A stretch of DNA of 64,000 nt, taken from assembly GCA_034687125.1 (NCBI GenBank), contig JAQGBZ010000019.1, positions 372,001-436,000 on the forward strand, written 5' to 3'. A model generated the notes under the pieces. That model saw only the letters and a program-made list of their open reading frames with translations. It had not been told where the DNA came from and ran no database searches. The position numbers and the translations under genes are program-made. Shown in pieces: positions 1,967-54,959 of the stretch. This DNA comes from Neelides folsomi (Eukaryota > Arthropoda > Collembola > Neelipleona > Neelidae). How positions within the stretch are numbered: position 1 is the stretch's first letter; every line of letters begins with the position of its first letter.

Positions 1967-4900
1967 TTCAGCTTCGCAATCCCATCGTCGAAGGAGAAAA
2001 CGGGATATTCTTGGATGTGTTCCCAAAGGTGAGGATTTTCCCTTTTGATGTAAAAGTCAGTTGCGGAATGCTTCACACTCGCCACTCGCTGATGAAGCAA
2101 CTATTCATTCAAAACAGACAATATTGTAATTAGGGTTCAAAATCATCAAAATTCCTTACATAATGGACAATTGCATAAATTGAAATAATCTTATAATTAA
2201 ATCAAATTTAATCAAATCAAGAGCTAAAATCTAATTTATTAAATAAATAAAATGTAATGGGTTTATAATAATAAGTATATCTGAATCTGGCTACTTAAGT
2301 GATCCAAATCTGGTATAAATTGCGACGACGTGGTCAAGGAGATAAGGTGGAAATCGCGAAGCGGATATTTCAAAATACGCTTCGTTTAATTGGAGACATG
2401 AGATAAGATATAGGGCATTTGTGCACATCACAGTCCTCGATGGCGTGATGCCAAATGAGGGAAAAGCAGAGGAAACTTTGCCCATTACCCAAACTGAAAT
2501 TCTCACATTCACCGCTACTTTAAATTTCTATTAACAGACAACTACAATAAAAGTTGACGGAGATTCGCATTTGAGACATTAAACGCCCCACTTCCATCCA
2601 CTGCATTCAAATACATTTGGAGAATCCTATACGATTCAGCACAACCATGTTTAACATAATAAAGATATAACTAAATAGGTTGATATTGTTAAAGATTTTA
2701 TATACGTTATTTTGGCTTATATTTGACTCTTTAGGAGTTCCAAAGGTTCAAATGGTTTGAACGTAATAGTGAAAACATGTAAAAAGCAATTGTTAAAAAA
2801 ACTTGTGAAAACTTTTTTAATTCGTCCATAACGAGCTCGTTATTCAATCTAGGGATTCTTTTGTTGAATTGAACTTCTTCACGACAATATTTAGAAAACA
2901 AGATGGAATAAATTACAATATCACTCAAAATGAAAAAGTTTGAATTTTCACTCATCAATTTATAAATTGGCGCGTAATTTGAAAGTTTAGGAACACTAAT
3001 GGAAAATTACAAAAGGAGCATTGTCCGCTTCTCCATTTGCAATGTTTCCATATCAACACGTTACGTAAATGTAAATGGAATAAAGGAATGAGAATTGAGG
3101 AAATAAGAGAAAGTGTATGGAAATAATCGTAAAGATAAAATTGGAGGTCTTACGCTTCTATCATGAACATCAACGGCTCGTTCGAAGAACATTCCGGCAA
3201 AAAGAGCGGCAATGTTGGCAGTGTAGGACGCGACGAAGATGACGGAAAATCCGCCCCAAACGTTGATGAGAAATTTGTTCGGCCATGATTTCGGAGCTTT
3301 GAAGGCCACAAGATGGGAAAACAACCGACCCCAAACGACCCATAAGGCCGAGGCCATTGAGAAATTCTTCGTCCGTTGTCGCCCCCATGGATTTAAACCA
3401 AATGGGGAGAACCATTCGTAAAGGGCCACGGCCAGAGCAGTGATGTTCAACGTGATAAAAATGACCAACCTGTTTGAAAATTCATAAATGCAAAAATGCA
3501 TACATCCACCTTAAATTAATCTAGCCTAAGATAATATTTATTATTAAAATGTTTGAAAATTTCATAATTTTGTTAAAATTGGCCCAAGGGGACTTTAATT
3601 AAAAACGTTGCCATGGTGATTAAAAAACCGCATTCATTACCTTCAATTAAAAACCCCGATCGTTATCCCAATTATCGAAAGTGCGAAAAGTTCATAAAGT
3701 CATAAGTATCAATGTGAAGGGAGGTGTTATCAGGGAAATTAACTTTCCCCAAGTTTAAATTAACTTGATGATGAGGATGAATGTAAATAGGGAAAGTTTG
3801 TTTAATTTAATGTTACCATAGCTCCGGACTGAAAGGGGCCAGAAAGGCGAACAGCGGCACGTCGTGATCCCGCGTCTTTCCAAGAAATCCAACACCAGAG
3901 AAGAAAAACGGCGTGGAAAAGTCGACAGCCAAACTCCTCATTGACGTCACAGAAAAGGGGGCAAAGCTAAGGATAATTTTACAATTTATTCAAATGATCC
4001 GCCATTCATGATTAATAAATTATTTAATATAAAACAATATTTGAGTTTAACTTTTTAATAGTATAGGTAAAAGAAAAGAGGTTTAACAATGGAATAAACC
4101 TAATAAAATATTTTAAAGAATGAAGATTGCTTAGTATATAAAAAATAACCTCATATGGGCTCCTCCAGACACAATTGCTCCCATCAGACCATTCCATTGC
4201 CCCGACGCCTGGAAAAGAATAAAAAGAAATAAAAAAACCGTTTCATTTCATTTAGATCTCATTTCCTAAATGGAGATGATGACTTTATCACTTAACAAAT
4301 TCTCACATTTGAACTCCCGGGTTTAAATTGACAAAAATTCAATAAACTTTCCGCTTTGTTAATTCAAACCATTCCTCGTTATTTAATTTATTTATCAACG
4401 CACATTATTTAGACCTTGCTACTTAAAGTCACCAGTTGGAATTTTGTATTTACAAGGAATTTCCTCCACCTGCCCGCCAGCAAATTTGTCATCTCATAAA
4501 GAAGAATTTCAAGCAGATGGTCCAATATTGGACTCTGAATTTAAAGGGCGGGCGGGAATTTAAAATAATAGCAAAAGGGGGATTGTAATTAATAAATTGA
4601 CGTTATGAGAATTCATACGTCGTGGAGGCGTTTAAAGACGTCTGCACCAGCTGGCCGCACTTCATAAAACACTTCCACTACGTGTTCCCGTTTTTTAAAA
4701 AAGATTTTAGCAAAACTTCAAACTCTCCCGCCCTGAGCGCCTTATGTTACTATACTGTCTGGCTTATTTCAAATACTTCTTCTATACACACTGTTGTAAA
4801 TTATAGTAGTTACATGCTATAGTAGTTACATGTTAAATGCTATTAAGTTCATTACATATAGCATTTAACATGGACACTATATATCTGTACATTTTGTTCC

Positions 4901-10692: not shown

Positions 10693-11794
10693 CTCAACAA
10701 CATTTGAGTCACATTGGGGCTTAATTGAACTCAATTTTAATGGCAATTGTCACTTTTTTTCCTTGGTGGAATTCTTCTTGGCATGGTTTTTCTTGATATA
10801 ATTTTTCTTGGATTTCTTTGGTGAAATTGAGAAGTGGAGGAACTTCATTGATTTTCACCTCCATTCTCCTTCTGGTTGATTTAATTACACTAAAAGCACT
10901 TCCAACTTCTTCTCCTATTTCAAAATAAATCGTTTGTGTAAATAAATAAAATGACCCAAAGTGGTAAACGAATATTTAATTGAGGATCGAATAAACTTTA
11001 AATCTGCAAGGAAAACTCGGAAAATATAAAAGTGGAACAACAAGGAGGAAAAGAAGTTCAAAATTTTGAACAAATTATAAGGAAAGATGATAAATGAAGA
11101 TTGATGATTATAAATGTGGGAAATTTAGTTATTCACACAAACCTTTCGTTTCACTTCCATGAGTTCAAACTTTAATCCCCAGCCTTTCATCACCGTTTCC
11201 CATTCAAATCTCCCTCCTCACCGCGGGATCATTTCCTATAACATTAAAAAATTCATTATTAGCATCAGCGGCAGTTAGGTCGTTAGGTGGGATGACAAAA
11301 CCCAAGGAGGCATTTCCTCTTAATCCAACCCAAATGAAAACAAATTTGAAAAAGGCGCGCATGGATTTAGCATAAAACCCCTTCGTTTAAGATTTCAGTT
11401 TGGACCAAACTTAGTTTTTAGCAAAGTAGAAAAGTTGAGAGAGAATTTAACAAATCTCTCCCCTGTTCAAATACCGATTTTTCCGGATTTTCTTACTTAA
11501 AGATAAAAAGTGAAGTTGAAGCAAAAGGATCTTAATATTTTATTCCTATCTTCAAACATTCTTCAACCTGATAAAAAAAACGTCAAATCTACTAACTTCC
11601 TCTAGTCCCATACTCCCCATACATTAATACCTTCATATGTCTCTCCTATAGCAACCTATACGGTTAAAATATACAAAAAATTCTGGTCTATTTCATCAGG
11701 GTTGGCCTATATAGTGCGATGAATTTTTTAACTTTCTTTTATATCCAATATTTAGTTTCCGACTCTTCCATTCTTAATAGAAATTATGTACATA

Positions 11795-11962
11795 CTGTCC
11801 TGTAAAAGTTCGCTCTTGACTTCCCGCTTTTTAGATTTTTTAAGATCAGCATTTATATTAACATATATTTATAATCTATCACAATTATATTTATGTTAAT
11901 CTAAATGCTGATCTAAATAAATTTAAAATGCGGGAAGTCAAGAGCGAACTTTTACAGTACAG
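11795..11962. mobile_element. Foldback MITE, 168 bp, Tc1/mariner-like (TA target duplication)
   Basis: The two halves are inverted copies. The left arm begins CTGTCCTGTAAAAG and the right arm, read on the other strand, begins CTGTACTGTAAAAG. Pairing continues through TTCGCTCTTGACTTCCCGC and inward past GATCAGCATTTA to nearly the centre. TA dinucleotides flank both ends (11793-11794 and 11963-11964), the target duplication expected of Tc1/mariner elements. There is no coding capacity, so it is a non-autonomous element. Confidence 0.85.
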
Positions 11963-14900
11963 TAGCTAAGATACAACCTAAATAATACAGTAGTCACTAT
12001 AGTTATTTGATACAAGTACCACAGACTAAAAGGATCTTTCCAAAATACACATGTTAGCATATGTAAATTATATTAAGCTTCAGCGGTTAAATATAAAGTA
12101 TTTGGGCAAAGTTTAGAGATGATTTTAGAGAGCTGAAATACTTAAAAGTGTGTTTGTTTGATATTAAGCGTCCTTAAGGTTCCTTTCCGTGTGCAGAGAG
12201 CATTTGCATAAGTAATGGGATCGATGAGTTTGGCCTGTCGGATCTAATGGAGAGACCGGGTGGGAAGTTGAAAAATGTGGAGAGAGAAAGGAATGTCATC
12301 GCCCGGCACGTGGATCTTTTCATCTCGGACACTCATCTTCATCACGGGGGGAATAAACCGGACTTTCCCTGCCGTTCCTCCCCCAACTCGGACATTAGTC
12401 AAGGGGAATTTCCACGTGGGTCAACAGCCACGCTCACTCAATGTCACTTCACTTAATTAACACTCCAACTTTCTCCTAAAACAATTTTACAACCTCCCTT
12501 TTTTATTTTCTTTCCGTCTGTTTTCATTGAATCTTTCCAATCTCGACCTTAAGCAAAGTAAAATAAAACATATTTTTTAACATTTAATTCCAGCGAATTC
12601 AAATCAGCTATTTTTTTTATTGTAAGTATAAAAATTATCAATGTTTGAACGAATGTCTTTTGGAGTAAATGAATATTTTTGTAATCCATTGTAAAGCTTG
12701 TAAAACATGTGGTCCAGGATTGGAAAAAACGCGACTTGAATTTTTATAAAAAATTCGTCGATAATTATTTATGTATACGATTTTTGCACGGATTTGAGGT
12801 TTTGTTGCATTGTGGATTTTTTGTAAGGAAATATTTTATCAAAATGGGAAAACCTGAATGAGAAAAAGAATCAACCGGTTATTTGAAAAGACCGCGGAAA
12901 GGAGATTTGAGATGGGTTGAATGGAATGACATTTATGAGCTTCGCCATCAATGAAGTTTCTTTAAAAGCTGGAAGAGACGAAGAGCGTCGAGTGGAATTT
13001 TAATCATGCGATTTGAAACTTGAAACTTCTCAATTTTCCCCACAACGCCAGACCACCATTTCCAAGATCTCGTTGGAGAAAGAAAAATGAGAGAAAAATT
13101 GGAATTCCTCCACGACTCTAAACAAACAACCGACGCTTTCTCTCTCGATAGGAATAAAATAAAGAATTCCAATCTCCGAATTTATAACCAACTGCAGGCC
13201 ATTTCATTCTTTTCTCATTAAATCTCTCATTAAACAAAATATTGATACAAGAACCAGAAATATTTCATATGAAGAAAAAGTTCAATCAATTTATCAATTT
13301 TTTCATACAATTCTTAACCCAAAGATCCAAACTTAATTCTAAATACCGACTTTGAGACAATAACAATGAGGTCAGTTTCAATATCTAACTGTTTATTAAA
13401 AACTTCGACATTTTTTCTAGAAATAACTTTTGCAAGAATACCAAATCTATTATGAGAAATGTCATTCATTCAAAATATGATAGAATCTAATAATTAATGT
13501 TTGTCTTAGTTAAAATTGTATTATATTGAATCTTAAATAATACCCCGTTAGTACTTAAATACAGAAACGATAAATTGTGGTATGTTGATGTTTATGAAGA
13601 AAAAACCTAAAATGTCTGCATGGTTGCAACATTTTTGTTCTGGAAATGGGAAGGGAAAGCATCGATAACTGTAAGGTTCAGTTCAGGGACCTGACACATT
13701 AATCCTGAATTGTAGATTGTTCATTGTCCTTGAGAGAAGTGGAAAGAGGGTCTTAAAATAATTTACGAAGGAGTTCCTCCATGGAGAGAATAAACCTTTG
13801 GGTTTTCATGGGAGGAATTAAGAAGAGAAAGGGGATAAATGGAGTATTTCGGCGGCCGCCGCCTCTCGCTGTATCCATCTCTTCCGACCAATTTATCGCC
13901 CATTTGCTCACTCAAACAATCCTCCCCATCCAAGGGGGAAAATGAAGAGTTCGCTAATCTCCCAATCTCCCTTCACTTGGGCTGGAGAAAATTCCAAAAG
14001 GACATTGAAGGGAACTATTTATTTATAAGGGAAGGAATAACATAGAAGTGGGGGAAATATAAGGGAAGAGTAAGTGCCCCCTTCAGCCTTTCACCCACAG
14101 GAACCTTTTCACATCCTCTCCCATCCCTCTCCCATTAACTATCACATGGACTCAAACGTCAGCTTCAACGACCAACTCACACGTTTCCAGGCTTCAAGTC
14201 ACGCCAACGCCAACTTAATATACGATCGACTACCTACCATACACAATGATCATTAAATTCTATTCTTTATTTCACTAGAAACCTATACACTTCAATGGTG
14301 AACATTCTCATTTTTTTAAATTGAAGATTTAATTCATATATCAAATTTTGATTGTGAAAATGCTCTAGTTTGAATTTAAAGTATTTTAGATTTGGAAGGG
14401 GATTGGAAAATGGTCAGAGTTTTCAAATAATGGCTAAAATCGAGTGAACTTGTTGAAGCCGGTTTTGGGGGTAACGAAGTGTGAAATGAGTTTAAAAAAA
14501 TTTTCCCCATCTCGTTTGCCCTGAGGAGCCCTTGAAAGTTGTGTATGTAAGGAGTTGATATATCAGACTTAATTCCCCAAATCCCCAATGGGATTACACA
14601 CACCACACCCGTCTGATTTTTCCGCCCAAAATGAATGGAATCCCATCAACGGCCCCAATAACCACCACTAGACTGTAATTAATGAGCAAAGCCCCAAGGG
14701 TCAAATAGTTCCATACACAAGGTAAAAGACCAAGAGGCTCCTCCAATTCATCGACTCCATTGACTCCCACCAACGATCTTTTCATCCCTTTGGATTCCGA
14801 CGCCCCAATCATCAATTTCCCCACCACAATAGAAAAAACTATCAAGGGCTCGAGAATTGAATTCGGAGGGCGGCTAATGTAAAAAAATCGCAATTTTTCT

Positions 14901-26000: not shown

Positions 26001-26619
26001 AACAAAGGGCGATAAAAGAGACGGCCATGGTTAATATAGAACCAATGGGCACTTATATAACTTAACTATAACAAATCTTATAATTATAGTCTTGTATGGA
26101 CCATATACAACCTTGTACATACATTTTATGTCCCTGGATATAATAAGTATCTTGTATGTCTTGTTTAAATAGGAGAGCCATATCAAATTTCTTGAGTTGT
26201 TCAATAAAAGAGATTCGAGGTATGAAAAGAATCTCGGTGCGGTTTCCTCAGGAAATCATTTTCCAAAATCTTTTATGCCATTTGCTTCATATTGGTTCAG
26301 TTTAATTCAAAATTATTTGATTTATGATTCTAATCTTATGTTATTGACTTTCAATTTCATTCCCATACAAAGTAAATCTGTACATATGGGAGTTCAACTT
26401 GGGAAATTGGGGAAAAGATCAAGATTTCATTTTTATAGGAAATCACCAAATCATTATTCATTTTTATTATGTCATGTCTGTGCCAATAATAAATAAAATT
26501 GTCAATTAATCAAATTGTGTTTCATTTAATATTTTCTACTGCAGATATTTTTATTGCAGTTAACTTTACAAATCGTGATTTTCCATGTTACAATTAAAAA
26601 TTAAATGTCTACACTACTA

Positions 26620-27959
26620 CAACGTGACCCAAATTAATCAAAACCCTATGGAGAAAGTCTTCTAATGTATTAAGATAGGGAAATGTAAAAACCTGCCTTC
26701 GTCATTATTCCATTCAAACGTTTACAGCTTGAACGAATTGAATGAAACCTCTAATATTTCCATATTATGAAATTTTAGTGCCATTTTAAATTCAGTTATG
26801 GCTTTCAATAAATTCACTTTAAATGAAAGAATTGTTATTGTTGAACAATATATTTCAACAAAAAGCTTTATCCGCACAATCAGAAACTTCAGAAACGAGT
26901 ATTCCGAAACTGAACCACCGAAAATCACCACCAAAAATCCACTATTTATAATTTATATAAGTTTAAGTTAACTGGGAGTGTCAATCGTGTCAACACACGA
27001 AGACGTCGAAAAATTCGAGTTGAAGACAACATTGTTAGCCTCACCGCGGCGATGGGCATTAGCCCACAGAAGTCTATCAGAAAATTATCTGCTCAAAGTG
27101 GATTATCTCGAGAATCTCTTCGAAGAATTTTAAAATATGATTTAAAATTGAAACCATATAAAATCATTTAACTCAAGAATTACTTCCCATCGATTATACG
27201 AAAAGAGTTGAGTATTTTGAATGGTTTCTCACCCACATTTCTCCAACTTGTGAAGAACTCGACGACGTCTATTGGACAGATGAGGCCTGGTGTCATCTTA
27301 ACGGATACGTCAATAGTCAAAATAACCGGTGGTGGACAGGAGAAAATCCTCACAGATTAATGCAGGTAAGAATAATATTTTTATTTTTAAATTATAAAAT
27401 ATAATTTAATTATTTAAATTTAATTATTCATTATCTTTAATTTTTAGGTTCCTTTACATTCTGGAAAGATAGGGGTTTAAGCAGCCATTTCAAGAAGAAT
27501 ATTTATTTATTTCTTTAATGGCACAATAGACAGGCAAAAATATATTCAGACAGTTGACAATTTTATAGACAAATTACCCCTAGCCTCAATTGCCAATACA
27601 TTTTTTCAGCAAGATAATGCACCATGTCATCGATCCACACAAGCAATGAACTTTTTGGAGGAAAAATTCCCAGGACGGCTAATTCGCTTTCCTACAAGAT
27701 CACCCGATTTAACTCCTTCTGAATAATCCCCATACCATTGAAGAACTACAGTAAACATTCAAATTGTAAATTCAATATCTCAAGAAACGTTATTCAATGT
27801 TTTCAACAATTTACGGAGAAGAGTAGAATTATGCCTCGAACAGAATGGAAGACACTTCGAGCATCACAAGGATAATTTTTCTACTTTTTGTCTATGATTA
27901 ATGCATTGTTATTGTATATGGCTTTCTCCATAGGGTTTTGATTAATTTGAGCCACGTTG
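26620..27959 (+). mobile_element. Tc1/mariner-type DNA transposon, 1.34 kb, inactive
   Basis: Terminal inverted repeats of 38 bp lie at 26620-26657 and 27922-27959. They read CAACGTG.C.CAAATTAATC onward, differ at two positions, and are bounded by TA at 26618-26619 and 27960-27961. The interior holds a transposase pseudogene on the plus strand. The near-identical ends suggest insertion not very long ago; the interior has since gained stops and frameshifts. Confidence 0.9.
26798..27897 (+). pseudogene. Broken DDE transposase with DUF4817-like N-terminus
   Basis: From the ATG at 26798 the first frame reads FTLNERIVIVEQYISTKSF and SETEPP, the DUF4817-type domain found at the N-terminus of many arthropod Tc1/mariner-type transposases. 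A helix-turn-helix region follows in another frame (GISPQKSIRKLSAQSGLSRE). The catalytic core then shows WTDEAWCHLNG, FQQDNAPCHRST and RSPDLTPSE, a DDE arrangement with about 35 residues between the last D and E. The C-terminus resembles the family ending (CLEQNGRHFEH). A GT..AG intron of 82 bp (27366-27447) interrupts the gene between LMQ and VPLHSGKIG. Damage: loss of frame near 26945-26965, a one-base shift near 27165, a stop after KIGV at about 27478, and a stop after TPSE. It cannot make active transposase. Confidence 0.88.
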
Positions 27960-27961
27960 TA

Positions 27962-29228
27962 TTACATACAAATGTTTAACATTGAATTATTCAAATACTA
28001 ATAAGTACATTTAATTTACAAAACACTAATTTAATTTATAAATATTTCATTTTAATTTTTAGATTTGAATGTGCTTTCTATGAGATTCTGGTGGTTGATT
28101 AAATAATCTTAATTTAATTTTATTATCGTTCCATAAATTAGAAATTGAAAACTAATCAAAAATGGAAAGAATGGATTTATTAATTTAATTTAAGTGGAGA
28201 TGAAAGGGGATGAAATGGACAGCGGAAGAGGGGCGGAAGCGGAATGAAAGGGATGATGGGCGTTGGAAGGTTTTTCCTCTTAATGAATCTCTTCTTTAAC
28301 TACTAATGAGAAAGAAAAAGGAGAAGTCCATTATTTCGGGAGAACTTCCATTTATTTGAAAAGGGTCTGGAATTCCTGGAGTTGAAATTTGGGTTGGGGA
28401 AGAAGGAACCGCTCAGCTCCTAAGGGGATTTCAGTCTCGATCCACTTCTTAAGTTGGAAAAGATACAAGTTTACTCCTTCGGCCCAGCCAGAGAGATTCG
28501 CCGGCATTCCTTGGGAAATCCCACACGTTTACACAACTCGGAGTTAAGTCAGGGCTTCGGGGACTCCGAACAATTTCAACGTAGAGATGGGAAGAGAAAT
28601 TCGATATTTTCTCCTAACGTTCTCAACGCCATCTTACAAATGGAAATTGTATTTATTTGGATATTTCAAACCTTTCACATTGTTTGTGTTTTAAAGTTTC
28701 TCCATTTAATACTTACATTCAAATACGTTAGCCATTATTACAATTTTATTGTGCATTTCTTGAATAAATTCCTCAATAAATCAATAATTAATGTATGATA
28801 TTAATGCTGGTTGCTTTTAGATAAATTCTAATGTTAAAAATTGCTTGATCGATTATTGATACTTACTGTTAGTTATAAATAAACTCTAGTTGGAAATTTT
28901 AAAACTACAATGAAAAATAAGAATGAATGTTTTGTGAATGTGTTATAAGTTATAAGTAGTTTAATTAAAAAGCTTATTCAAATATTTGTTTATGATTAAT
29001 GATTTATTAGTCCAACATTTTGTAAACATAATATGCATTTATCACTATATTCTCATATTGGAAACATTACCAATATTCACTAACTAAATGATGATGAAAG
29101 TAAAACTCTACAAAAGAATAATAAGAGATGTGGTAGATGAAACATTCCAATCATAATTACTAGATAACATATTAGGTATTTGCATAAAATCGGTAGGATT
29201 AGATATTATTATACAGGTAGAGACACAT
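27962..29228. other. Non-coding spacer between mariner element and receptor gene
   Basis: The plus-strand open frame at 28454-28798 has no family signature and ends in low-complexity hydrophobic sequence, so I do not call it. The minus-strand receptor gene ends at 29229, and the first few hundred bases here would include its 3' UTR. Confidence 0.5.
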
Positions 29229-33857: not shown

Positions 33858-34251
33858 CAGGGGCGTAGCGTGATTTGGTCCGGCCCGGAGGCGAGCGGCC
33901 ATGGTCCGGCCCCTGTATGTAATATACTCAAAATTCTATCAAAATTTTGAATATATCTATAGGTATATAAATTTTTTAGTATTAAATAAATAAGATTATA
34001 TTTTAAGCATTAATAAGGGACATAAGGGGGGCCGGACCTAGGCAAAATATATACTAGATATTATTCAAAAAATAAAACGAGATCACATTTGACGAGAATA
34101 AAAATAAATATGGACCTTGGTCAAGAGAAAATTTTAAAAAATTCAATTTTATTTAGTCTAAAGTTCCTTGCAATTGGAAAAGTATCTAGTGTCTACTCCG
34201 CATTGGTCCGGAGTTGACAACTCCTCTTAACTCCTCGGCGCTACGCCCCTG
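33858..34251. mobile_element. hAT-type MITE, 394 bp, with perfect 8-bp target duplication
   Basis: The ends are exact 13-bp inverted repeats: CAGGGGCGTAGCG at 33858-33870 and CGCTACGCCCCTG at 34239-34251. The CAGGGGCGTAGC start is typical of hAT elements. TTTCTTGC flanks it on both sides (33850-33857 and 34252-34259), the 8-bp target duplication of hAT superfamily insertion. There is no transposase, so it is non-autonomous. The GGTCCGG words inside near both ends form a second, looser inverted pair. The perfect duplication indicates a fairly young insertion. Confidence 0.92.
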
Positions 34252-34259
34252 TTTCTTGC
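34252..34259. repeat. Right target-site duplication of the hAT MITE (TTTCTTGC)
   Basis: Identical to 33850-33857. Confidence 0.9.
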
Positions 34260-34404
34260 TGATCTCATTTCAGTAATATAAAAGTTAATAGATAATAATT
34301 TTAACTTTATAATGAAAGAGAATAAAAAGCATTAATAAATAATAAGTTTTAAGTTTTAATGAAAATGAATAAAAATGGTTAAAAAAAGACTCGTTAAATG
34401 AAAG

Positions 34405-34477
34405 AACCTCAAATGTTAAACAGATACCCCTTTTAAGTACTAATGGTTCGCCCTTTTCCTGCCTAACATTTGAGGCT
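34405..34477. repeat. Short inverted repeat AACCTCAAATGTTA / TAACATTTGAGGCT
   Basis: Arms at about 34405-34419 and 34464-34477 flank a loop of about 45 bases. A GC-rich block of about 190 bp follows (34490-34690), unlike the AT-rich surroundings; its origin is not recognised. Neither arm shows a target duplication. Confidence 0.5.
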
Positions 34478-34756
34478 CTTACAATTTCTGAAGGTGCCGT
34501 TGCAGTGACACAAACGAAATCAGCGAGCTCTCGTTAGCCTTCCAAGTTTTCGGTCACTTTCGCCCACTTGTCCTATACTGGAGACTTGCGAGGCGCGGAG
34601 GTATTAGTGACCTACTTGCTTTTCAAGCCCTCCTCCACCCTCATCGATGGCACGTCTTTCCCGTAAGGATCTAAGACGGGGAATGAGGAAATATAGAATA
34701 AATCATATATATCATTCAATTATTTTTTATTAATCTTTATTTATTTATATAAATAT

Positions 34757-34823
34757 ATATGTAATAGAGATATCTAAAAGGTCCTATTTAAAAAATCAAA
34801 TAAATTTTAATGCGTTTCTAGAG
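34757..34823 (+). repeat. Left terminal inverted repeat (67 bp)
   Basis: Pairs base for base with the complement of 37084-37150. The inner 45 bp contain only about three mismatches; the outer part is less conserved. Confidence 0.85.
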
Positions 34824-35109
34824 GTTTTTAGGATTTCCGTTATTTTTAATATGGTACTTAAAATGATATAATGTGTATTAGACCAAACTTTGGGGGCAAT
34901 CTGAGTAAAATAAAAGATCATAGAATACAATCTGCGAAGTTTTACTTTGTTCATGTGTCGTTGAATTTGAAATTGAAGAAGAAAAATTATTTAATTAATT
35001 CTTTCCCTTCAATCTTTAAATACCAATTAAAGATTGTCATTTCGCTTTAATTTTTTTTGTTTCATTGATTGATTGTATTAATTAACCACAATTTGTTAAT
35101 GATTTCATA

Positions 35110-36911
35110 ATGAATAAAATAGAAATACCTCTTAAATCGTTACAAAATAGATCCATTTATAAGAAAAAGAGAGAAAATGTCTTAAATCAAAATAAAGTGA
35201 AATACAAGCTATTAAACAATTCAAATGAGGAATTCGTCAACACGAAAGATGAAACCATTGAGGCCAAAAGCGTTCCAAACAGTGTAAGTACTAAATAGAA
35301 TAATTAGAACAAAGTAAATGATTACAATAATATTTATGATTATCAATAGTAAATATTATACTTAATACAGGATTTTGAATGTGGAATTCGATGTACAAAG
35401 AAGGATGTAATTTGCCATTGGAAAAGAGAATTGAAATGTTCAATGAATACTGGGAGACTAAAAATAAAAGTTCACAATCAAAAATACTTGCAAGACTCAT
35501 TGACCGGTTTGATGTAGCTGTGAGTAAAATCGAAAATTCTCGAAAACAATCAACTTTTAAATTCTACCTTCTGGACAACTTTGGAACACGTGTTCAAGTT
35601 TGTCGTGAAAGATTTATGAATACGTTCGGGATTAAAATTCGGACACTCAGGACGGTTTTAAACAAAATTAAAACAGGAAGCACGAATTTTGAAGACCAAC
35701 GAGGGTATCATTTAAATCACCCAACACAAATTAATGATGATCTCAAAGAAAGAATGTCTGATCACATCGAAAGTTACCCAAAAGAAATTTCACACTATGG
35801 AAGAACGGTAATAATTCAATTATTAAAATTTATATATTAAAATAATTTATACTATTCTAATAAATAAAGCAATTTATTAAAAAAATAATGATTATACAGG
35901 GTGATCCATTACAACTTTATTTGGGCAAAGACTTATCAATTGCGTCTATGTTTCGATCATTCATTGAGATAAATGGCGTCGAACTCAAAAAACATTTTTG
36001 GATGTATAGAAGAATTTTCAATGATAAAAAACTCAAATTTGAAGAACCTCGACAAGACACTTGTGCAACTTGTGATCGATTTAAGGTAAAAATTGATGCT
36101 TTTCCTATTCCCAATCAAGAACGGACCAATTTAAAAGCTCAACATGAAATCCATTTGCAACAAGCAAAAAGAGCATATTTTGAGATGCAAAATGATATCA
36201 AGCAAGCAAAAGAGGAACCCATTTACATCTGTCTTTCAATTGATTTACAATCGGTAATTATTTGATAAGTAAATTATTTACATTATGAGATTAATTAGGT
36301 ACATAATAATAATTTATTACATAAATAATATAATTATTATTATTAGATAATAATAAAATTATAATTATATTTAGGTTTTGTCTAGCCCAATGTTATCCTG
36401 TCAGACAAAGCATTTTACTTCAAATTTCCAGAAATACAATTTGGGAATTATCAATAACGCGACAGATACTGCGACATTCGTCATTTGGCATATGAGAAAA
36501 GCAGACATTTTGGATCCAAATGACTTTCTTCAAATGATTCAAAAGTCTAATATTGTTCATCCTTGTGGAATTCAAAGAATGACATACACAGATTTCTTCA
36601 AATTCGATCAATATTTGAAAGTATTCAGGTGGCCAAAAAGTCTCAAAGTGACAAGAGTCAAGTGGACAAAAATCACCAAAGCCGAACCAGGATTAATTCA
36701 CACAAAAGAAGAAATTGGATCGGATACTTTTATTCAACACCGATTGGTTTATGCTAACGATTCTCTCTCAGAAATTAACCTTCTTCCAATGTATACTTCT
36801 CCTCTTCAAATCTCGCAATCGCTTCTGAATGACATTAAAAAGATCATTGGCTTCATCCCTCATAATAAACGACAATTTTGGGACTTTTTGATTGACTCTG
36901 TAAATGTCTAA
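35110..36911 (+). pseudogene. Broken gene of an uncharacterised arthropod family (DUF7869-like), probable transposase
   Basis: Four exons with good splice sites, all phase 0: 35110-35283, 35371-35807, 35900-36253, 36375-36911. Features seen: a basic N-terminus; a CGIRCTKK cysteine motif; a helical basic region; then EEPRQDTCATCDRFKVKID, a helix-rich segment rich in lysine, and ICLSIDLQS|VLSSPMLSC leading to QKYNLGIINNATD. I recall this layout (a TC..CD motif, then a D.Q..L..P segment and YNLGIH) from many large arthropod proteins listed only as uncharacterised; the DUF7869 label is from memory. Two breaks: exon 2 must change frame between CTKK and CNLPLEKR (about 35400-35410), and the part usually lying between the YNLGI region and the C-terminal RKADI region, where the D..GQN and H-S-D residues sit, is missing at about 36490. 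A sequencing error could explain the first break, not the second. The flanking terminal repeats make a transposase role likely. Confidence 0.7.
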
Positions 36912-37083
36912 TGTATACCTACAATGTTATTTGTTTGTTTATATAAATATCTTTATGATGTTGTTTATCTTAATTATTTTATTAATTGTTTATAATCTTA
37001 TAAATAATGATTTTAATCATTCGAACATTTTTGAAGTACTAATCAGATAACAATTTAAAATTAAAATTTTTAATAAACAAAAT

Positions 37084-37150
37084 CTTTAGAAACGCATCAA
37101 AATTTATTTGACTTTTTAAATAGGACCTTTCAGATATTCCTTTCACATAT
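37084..37150 (-). repeat. Right terminal inverted repeat (67 bp)
   Basis: Complementary to 34757-34823. It lies about 170 bp beyond the stop codon of the internal gene. Confidence 0.85.
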
Positions 37151-37532
37151 GTACGTAGAATAGAATAATAGAATGTATTGTTCTAAATGCAAATGTCAAT
37201 GAAAAGGTATTTTATATTGTATACCCATTTTGATGAACAACTTTTATATAAACATGAGCATAAAGGGAAGTTGATGTGAATGGTGGAGATCTGGCAACGT
37301 ATTTGTAAGACTATTGTTTGCAGATCTCGAAGTGCTCAGTTTATTTCATACCCTCCTTAAACTAAGAAATTGTAAATTTGTTTTCTTTAATTACCACTAT
37401 GTATGTAATGTAAACATATTGTTTTATATTTTACTTTTATGTTTTACTTTACTTGAAACAATAAAACCATTGGAAAATTTATTTTTATTTACTTTTTACA
37501 TCATATGTATTATTAATGATAAGTTTTGAAAA

Positions 37533-38380
37533 TTAAAATTTTCTATGAATTTTTTTGTGATGATGAATGCGATGACGAGAACGTTTAGAATTGCAAGGTG
37601 TTGAACTTCTTCTGATTGATTTTACATCTCCTGGCTTAATCCCGGCGTCAATTTCAGCTATATTAAAAACAGCTCCAGGTGTTTGGAGTTTTGGATCCAT
37701 TGGGTCAATGCAATAATGAAGCCCTTCATAATTCTCTCTTTGATAAAGAAGAACTGGACTTGGGCCCATAATGAGCATTGAAGAAAAATGATACAGTGAA
37801 ACGTCGGCATTTTCTGTGTCTATTTGAAAGCGTCCTTCAAATTTTGGTTGATCAAAGATGGCAAAACTTTCTTTGACATTATTTATTCCTGCGAATTGAT
37901 AAGAGCCAAAATTTTTTTGAAATCTGCAAAAATTTAATTAATTTTATTTACAAAGACGATTTTAAATTATATTATGTGAAAAGTATTGAAAATATTCTAA
38001 ATTTACTTGATCGGAAAGTTTCCGCAAGTTTCTTCTCCATCTTTTCCAGCAATAATATATGGATATCCAACGTGTTCGCTCAAATAATTTGGAAATTCAT
38101 AACCGATCCAACTGAAAAAATTGAATAATTTATTAAAATTGTCATAAATGTTGAAATATGTAAATTACAATCCTGGGCCGTAGACACAATAAGAAACAGC
38201 TCTGTTTTCATCACTCAAACAAGTTTGGTTTGGGGTTGACCAAGAAGTTTCCACGTAATATCGAGAAGTTTCCATGTTGTGGTCCAATTCTGAAAAAAGA
38301 ACCATTTTGACCTTATCTCCAAAAACTGGAGAAATTGTCCCTAAAAGTAAACTTAAACTTAAAAAAATAATTAAATTCAT
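37533..38380 (-). CDS. Secreted beta/gamma-crystallin-like protein, copy A
   Basis: Three exons (38169-38380, 38007-38111, 37533-37923), both introns phase 2, giving 235 residues. The signal peptide is residues about 1-21 (LIIFLSLSLLLG). Greek-key signatures (aromatic, five residues, aromatic, x, G) appear in FAIFDQPKFEG and LLYQRENYEG, and the domain closes with GDVKSIRR, the usual crystallin turn. Five cysteines are shared with copies B and C. Unlike them it ends in a basic, histidine-rich tail (RHRIHHHKKIHRK) that might bind metal or anionic surfaces. TATA box at 38451-38458; an AATAAA signal lies just downstream (complement at 37478-37483). First of three tandem genes on the same strand. 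Role unknown; secretion with a structural, calcium-binding or defensive job is possible. Confidence 0.8.
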
Positions 38381-39537: not shown

Positions 39538-40394
39538 TTATGATTCAACCCATGTCTTGGTTGGAGTGCAGGCGTTTCTTCTGATTGATTTAACATCTCC
39601 AGGAGCCAAACCAAATTGGTCTTCCATATCTTCAACTTGTCCTTGACGTGAGAGGTCTGGGCTTGAGGGGTCAAGACAGAAGGAAAGTCCAGCGAATCCA
39701 ACGCGTTGGAACATTTGAACATTGGTTGTGCCGAAAATGAGCATTGAAGCGAAATGGAAATCTGAAATATCTTCAATCTCATCAGTCATCACAATGTTGT
39801 GTTTTACTCCTTCGAAATAAGTGCCGTTGAAAAAGGTAATGCTTTCAGGTGCATCGTCTAAACCAGCGAATCTGTATGATCCAATACGGCCTCGAGTTCT
39901 AAAATGATTTTAAATTATAATTATAAATATGAAGTTGGCTAAAAATAAAATTTAATATTGATTTAAGTATTACGCTGCGTTAAAAGCGTCACAATTTTCA
40001 GTTGCACCAGCACGCCCCATAATGACATAAGGAAAGTTTCCGGTCTGATCACTTTCAAAATTTGGTTGTGAATATCCAATCCAGCTAATTCAGAATGAAC
40101 TCATTTTTAATAATTCATTCAATTTTTAGATCAATTAGAATTACTTAATAGAATTTATAAATATTAATTATATTGATTCACTTACAATCCAGGTCCATAA
40201 GCACAATATGACTGGGCCGCATTTGTTGAGTCTAAACACCCTTGATTTTCATTTTCAATCCTTGTATCAATGTAATGGTTGGATTTCTCTGGGTCATGTT
40301 CTAAAGTATTACTGTATAATCTAATTCCTACATTAACTCCAGAAATGACCTCAAAGGCCAATCCGAAAAGACATAATAAAATAATGACTCTCAT
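39538..40394 (-). CDS. Secreted beta/gamma-crystallin-like protein, copy B
   Basis: Three exons (40186-40394, 39974-40084, 39538-39898), both introns phase 2 and at the same sites as in copy A, giving 226 residues. The signal peptide is IILLCLFGLAFEVISG. Greek-key signatures are ITFFNGTYFEG and VQMFQRVGFAG, with IGSYRFAG before and GLAPGDVKSIRR at the end. The five cysteines of the family are present. Identity to copy A is clearest in the IGSY.FAG, FSSMLI/FASMLI and PGDVKSIRR blocks. The TATA-like element is at about 40469-40484. Function unknown. Confidence 0.82.
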
Positions 40395-54839: not shown

Positions 54840-54841
54840 TA

Positions 54842-54957
54842 TCTGGAAAACAAAAATCAAGTGAGACAAAGAATCCATGGCACTGCACAAAAAACAAACT
54901 ATATGTTTTTGTGCAGTGCCATGGATCCTTTGTCTCACTTGATTTGTGTTTCCCAGA
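54842..54957. mobile_element. Near-perfect 116-bp hairpin, probable TA-flanked MITE
   Basis: Two arms of about 50 bp pair with only three or four mismatches. The left arm starts TCTGGAAAACA and holds AAATCAAGTGAGACAAAG and ATCCATGGCACTGCAC; the right arm is its complement. The loop is about 10-15 bases of A/T-rich sequence. TA flanks both ends (54840-54841 and 54958-54959). A small Tc1/mariner-type MITE is the simplest explanation; a hairpin small-RNA precursor is the alternative. Confidence 0.75.
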
Positions 54958-54959
54958 TA

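Follow-up and report, generated by a model that had tools for sequence, protein, structure and literature searches.

Dead DNA transposons of probable Sola2-like type in Neelides folsomi, and their possible link to the Pfam domain DUF7869

Sola transposons encode a DDD transposase, generate 4-bp target-site duplications and possess inverted ends of 11–1124 bp, according to the available excerpt of PMC10741241, and they are grouped in the RNase H-like superfamily in the accessible part of PMC3985635. For Sola2 (Bao and Jurka 2013), the excerpted text of PMC3627910 describes AT-rich 4-bp duplications of the form AWWT, i.e. ATAT, AAAT and ATTT. I report here a dead transposon copy from a 64,000-nucleotide stretch of the N. 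folsomi genome (hereafter the window), and its relatives elsewhere in that genome, whose ends and target sites fit these descriptions.

A first-pass annotation of the window had described 67-bp inverted ends located 2.4 kb apart, with a single gene between them. The ends are real, if one base pair longer than stated: the element proper spans 2,386 bp (34761–37146), starts with GTAATAG and finishes with CTTTCAC, and within it the arms measure 68 bp. The aligned arms extend slightly further, as a 75-nt pair (34754–34828 and 37079–37153, 87% complementary, 2,250 nt apart) that is the longest inverted pair within positions 34000–38000. The same annotation had been unable to fix a target duplication; ATAT is found immediately outside both ends, and since this word is its own reverse complement, it lengthens the inverted repeat and conceals the duplication at this element. 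As annotated, a single gene lies between the ends. It runs in the same direction as the element, and possesses four exons separated by GT/AG introns, as read by eye. The identified features are as follows.

34757..34760, no strand: left target-site duplication, ATAT, the outermost 4 bases of the interval in the first-pass annotation
34761..34828, plus strand: left terminal inverted repeat, 68 bp, GTAATAG start, 9 of 68 positions mismatched to the right arm
35112..35283, plus strand: exon 1 of the putative transposase gene, first letters MNKIEIPLKSLQNR, from open frames
35371..35807, plus strand: exon 2, with one frameshift, from open frames and genome matches
35900..36253, plus strand: exon 3, with the final motif SIDLQ, from open frames and genome matches
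36375..36911, plus strand: exon 4, internally deleted, C-terminal part kept, from comparison with loci L048, L047 and L050
37079..37146, minus strand: right terminal inverted repeat, also found in a half copy on contig C509 (locus L045)
37147..37150, no strand: right target-site duplication, ATAT, the outermost 4 bases of the same interval

I scored the best inverted repeat bracketing the gene; the window element reached 55, while the best of 20 dinucleotide shuffles reached 21. Among random anchors placed elsewhere in the window, 6 of 234 scored 32 or more, each with a score of 39, which may be due to a second element with inverted ends, at 26615–27964. Its ends (50 nt, 88%) start at TA, and it encloses a broken gene (WTDEAW..., FQQDNAPCHRS...SPDLTPSE) that is presumably Tc1/mariner-like. 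Other repeats were also seen in the window. Two tight inverted repeats, at 11793–11964 (79 nt, 90%, arms 14 nt apart) and 54840–54959 (54 nt, 94%, arms 12 nt apart), are possibly small foldback or MITE-like elements, and a 55-nt direct repeat (37760–37814 and 39726–39780, 71% alike) perhaps reflects a duplicated gene, because its first copy sits in a minus-strand open frame (37533–37937).

The 75.1-Mb assembly (840 contigs) was searched for relatives. At the protein level, exons 4, 3 and 2 gave at least 37, 7 and 9 matches respectively, window counted; with a fragment of locus L048 as an additional query, matches were found in at least 34 other places. None of the frames read (L048, L050, L058, L059, L060, L068 and the C71 locus) held an intact full-length gene, the remaining places being known from matched fragments. 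The ends are repeated as well, with copies of the left end on contigs C181 and C173, 96–97% identical, in addition to the right end retained on C509. Whole elements also recur: that of locus L062 (contig C52) matches C131 over its length (93%), C138 in pieces and C681 in two pieces. The 516-bp element of locus L024 returned 50 match rows, many of which correspond to its ends, and on C37 and C144 both of its end parts match, while its middle, containing the coding remnant, does not. Short copies with both ends measure 432–868 bp, and are typical deletion derivatives.

Some copies have been rearranged. In L043:3867–4176 and L044:3349–3658, the left end of the window element is followed by the same segment of ∼220 bp, absent from the window element, which terminates at GCATTACCA, and neither place showed a right end. 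A 186-nt inverted repeat (98%) encloses this stretch in L043, where a 30-bp remnant of that left end (L043:3161–3190) is also truncated by another repeat, CAAAATAATAAACGGC..., likewise found in L044. The C71 copy (L063, L033) is interrupted by an opposite-strand gene, apparently of mariner type.

I then applied the bracketing test to 26 loci with protein matches, using shuffles as control. In 18 of these (the window element, L024, L027, L028, L029, L031, L046–L051, L054–L057, L061 and L062), the best inverted repeat enclosing the protein remnant scored 32–65, above the highest shuffle score at any locus, 24. The remaining eight (L030, L045, L052, L053, L058, L059, L060 and L063) scored 9–22, with no convincing bracketing repeat. 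Six further loci were scored without shuffles: L070 (56) and L072 (64) reach values as high as in the first set, L068 possesses a 31-nt inverted pair (90%, score 25), and nothing convincing was found for L069, L071 and L073 (scores 17, 14 and 25). Locus L034, whose flank is too short, was left out of the test, as were C155 and C403. The 18 positive loci are not all independent, since end types are shared by L031, L061 and L062, by L050 and L051, by L054 and L056, and by L027 and L057. Many clearly different end sequences are nonetheless found among them, and these loci are therefore not copies of one duplicated segment: these relatives have inverted ends of their own, immediately enclosing what is left of the protein. 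In this genome, the repeats thus belong to the copies of the gene.

The bases flanking the elements were compared in 23 copies, 19 with ends set from aligned arms and four added later; L028 and L054, whose ends are unclear or run into an AT repeat, were omitted, and L078 was not scored. Sixteen copies have identical 4-bp flanks (ATAT in 13, AAAT in two and ATTT in one). In the seven others the flanks differ, by one base in four copies and by two in three. No copy of the 23 had equal flanks once the boundary was slid by 1–4 bases in either direction, and sliding by 5–8 bases gave 0–3 such copies, with two of the matches non-palindromic; this control is not blind, because the ends were set with the ATAT-G junction in view. 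The palindromic ATAT, which alone cannot separate a duplication from an inverted end, accounts for 13 of the 16 equal pairs, so that the weight is carried by the three non-palindromic ones, in L048 (ATTT), L062 and L070 (both AAAT). Pairing the flanks of different copies gave agreement in 139 of 342 cases, compared with 13 of the 19 true pairs, and cross-copy agreement falls to 5 of 108 where the left flank is non-palindromic.

The duplication is 4 bp long, and has the form AWWT in all 16 equal pairs. Over the 38 ends of 19 copies, a terminal G is present at 35, and the four bases preceding the element are A (34 ends), T or A (38), A or T (38) and T (36). Since ATAT is the rarest AWWT word in the window (698 occurrences, versus 1,208–1,318 for the others), its dominance reflects a preference.

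Empty sites were also searched for. The joined flanks of the window copy matched nothing but themselves in the genome. The L062 copy interrupts an array of 84-bp units, the reverse complement of which contains ...HTRVHTGEKPFKCKI..., which by eye is recognisable as a C2H2 zinc-finger linker. When the flanks of L062 were joined with a single AAAT, they gave four alignments to other units of the array across the junction, at 70–73% identity. All four are ungapped at the junction itself; a one-base gap lies 6 bases before it in two of them, and a gap of 2–3 bases is found ∼20 bases after it. The other array units serve as an empty site from the same locus, albeit a diverged one. Since this short copy lies inside a zinc-finger array (L062:2156–2712 and 2714–3369), it may have interrupted a gene.

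The window gene itself is decayed. Comparison with other copies, mainly L048 (contig C11), places a frameshift close to the beginning of exon 2, and reveals that exon 4 is devoid of the WSDRC..NNN and GHSFL..DRHF..E blocks, amounting to ∼100 codons. Three acidic blocks are recurrent among copies, and the window copy lacks two of them. The gene cannot encode a working enzyme. Of the three motifs listed in the first-pass annotation, TC..CD (as DTCATCD) and D.Q..L (as DLQSVL, spanning an intron) are present, and the third, YNLGIH, reads YNLGII in this copy. Exon 1 has relatives in L046, L047, L048, L049, L050, L052 and L057. A low-confidence model suggests that exon 2 may contain a helix-turn-helix DNA-binding region, and the SIDLQ at the end of exon 3 is presumed to provide the first catalytic aspartate.

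As to the identity of the protein, fragments from four members of the family match a Pfam domain of unknown function, DUF7869 (PF25273), whose curated cut-off is 26 bits. The catalytic region of L048, read through, matches it just below this value (E 1e-5, 25.6 bits). Three of seven fragments from other members also match, L063 above the cut-off (27.3 bits), L068 and L058 below it (22.1 and 21.4 bits); a second fragment from each of L068 and L058 and two from L060 did not match, nor did six single pieces of L048. A search of the genome with the family found one place, scoring 24.5 bits, which is the L063 locus on C71. The three window exons tested gave no DUF7869 match, because most of that region is deleted, and nothing else above cut-off in a Pfam scan. 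The best of the weak hits, TRCF for exon 2 (E 7e-4, 20.3 bits where the cut-off is 25), I regard as fortuitous, the corresponding E value for the L048 exon being 0.13.

Locus L068 (contig C385) is a distant member with 31-nt inverted ends of its own, flanked by ATAT, and the association of DUF7869 with such elements therefore does not depend on one subfamily. No relative beyond this genome was found in viral_contigs, genome_contigs, phage records or PDB sequences, and a motif pattern gave 0 matches in viral_contigs. Two structure models of protein parts are of low confidence (mean pLDDT 58.0 and 61.3), and neither matched a PDB structure at E ≤ 0.001. The predicted strand-helix-strand-helix order around YSD and DHSFL..REF..E would fit half of an RNase H fold, and proves nothing. 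Since relatives possess their own inverted ends and 4-bp duplications, the protein is very probably the transposase, as the first-pass annotation had proposed.

The transposon nature of this stretch is strongly supported. I consider that it is probably a dead copy from a diverse and dead family of Sola2-like cut-and-paste DNA transposons, because the set of duplications found in the family (ATAT, AAAT and ATTT) is the same as that given for Sola2 in the excerpt of PMC3627910. This placement was made by comparing target duplications and inverted ends to published descriptions. In this reading, DUF7869 would be the core of a Sola2-like transposase, which is probable, and is the useful new part of the result; the link of this Pfam family to such transposons may itself be new. 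The suggestion of an undescribed transposon group is not borne out, as AWWT duplications and inverted ends are already reported for Sola2 and Sola in the portions available of PMC3627910 and PMC10741241.

A distinctly less likely, though not negligible, reading is that these elements form an undescribed superfamily of their own among DNA transposons, and have only the AWWT 4-bp duplications in common with Sola2. Under this unlikelier account, DUF7869 would be the catalytic core of a large uncharacterised AWWT transposase superfamily, distinct from Sola2 in sequence, and the dead copies of which pass for ordinary 'uncharacterised proteins' in the annotation of animal genomes. It draws on the fact that the placement with Sola2 was made from ends and duplications, that the string 'DUF7869' appears in no paper of the literature searched, and that PDB sequence searches gave no match. 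Against it, the duplications equal those of Sola2 in both length and sequence (PMC3627910, as excerpted), and the longest copies (2.0–2.6 kb) and their inverted ends agree with the description of Sola in the available text of PMC10741241.

Duplications of 4 bp are not unique to Sola, and are also known for superfamilies such as Academ, Ginger and Chapaev/CMC. Membership in one of these is very improbable: no Pfam transposase model matched, the only hits besides DUF7869 being weak, sub-cut-off and unrelated ones such as TRCF, and the AWWT target agrees with Sola2 (PMC3627910, in excerpt). Finally, the notion of a host gene family lying by chance between unrelated inverted repeats, outside the unit of the gene, to which the introns and the eight of 26 loci without such ends could be ascribed, is scarcely credible and was rejected on the bracketing test, as loci with differing end sequences have the remnant enclosed all the same, with ATAT-like duplications beyond the ends, and the same element (the L062 type) is found at several places.

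For the Sola2-like reading, I infer the following mechanism. The transposase would have a DNA-binding domain at its N-terminus, followed by an RNase H-like DDD/E core, with the catalytic acids presumably being the D of SxDLQ, the D of WSDRC and the D/E in GHSFLPADRHFALVE. It would bind the long inverted ends and excise the element adjacent to its terminal G. Joining of the element to ATAT-like (AWWT) targets would occur across a staggered cut of 4 bp, doubling those four bases. Internally deleted copies retaining both ends could have been moved in trans.

These results offer a probable function for DUF7869, listed by Pfam as a 'domain of unknown function'. They also provide repeat annotators with the ends, target preference and gene model by which such elements can be recognised; gene sets including DUF7869 proteins may require the removal of transposon remnants. 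Aside from this assignment and its value for annotation, this is an ordinary fossil transposon family.

Compared to the Sola2 elements of Dictyostelium fasciculatum and Polysphondylium pallidum, as described in the excerpted text of PMC3627910, the copies reported here share the AWWT 4-bp duplications, the terminal inverted repeats and the occurrence of derivatives that have lost most of the transposase. In contrast to the 12–21 bp ends given there, the inverted ends in N. folsomi range from 31 nt to more than 100, and the copies measure 0.4–2.6 kb; no Fanzor gene was noticed in the window element. Terminal inverted repeats are a common feature; their lengths here, which fall within the 11–1124 bp range, and the 2.0–2.6 kb of the longest copies both fit Sola as characterised in the available part of PMC10741241.
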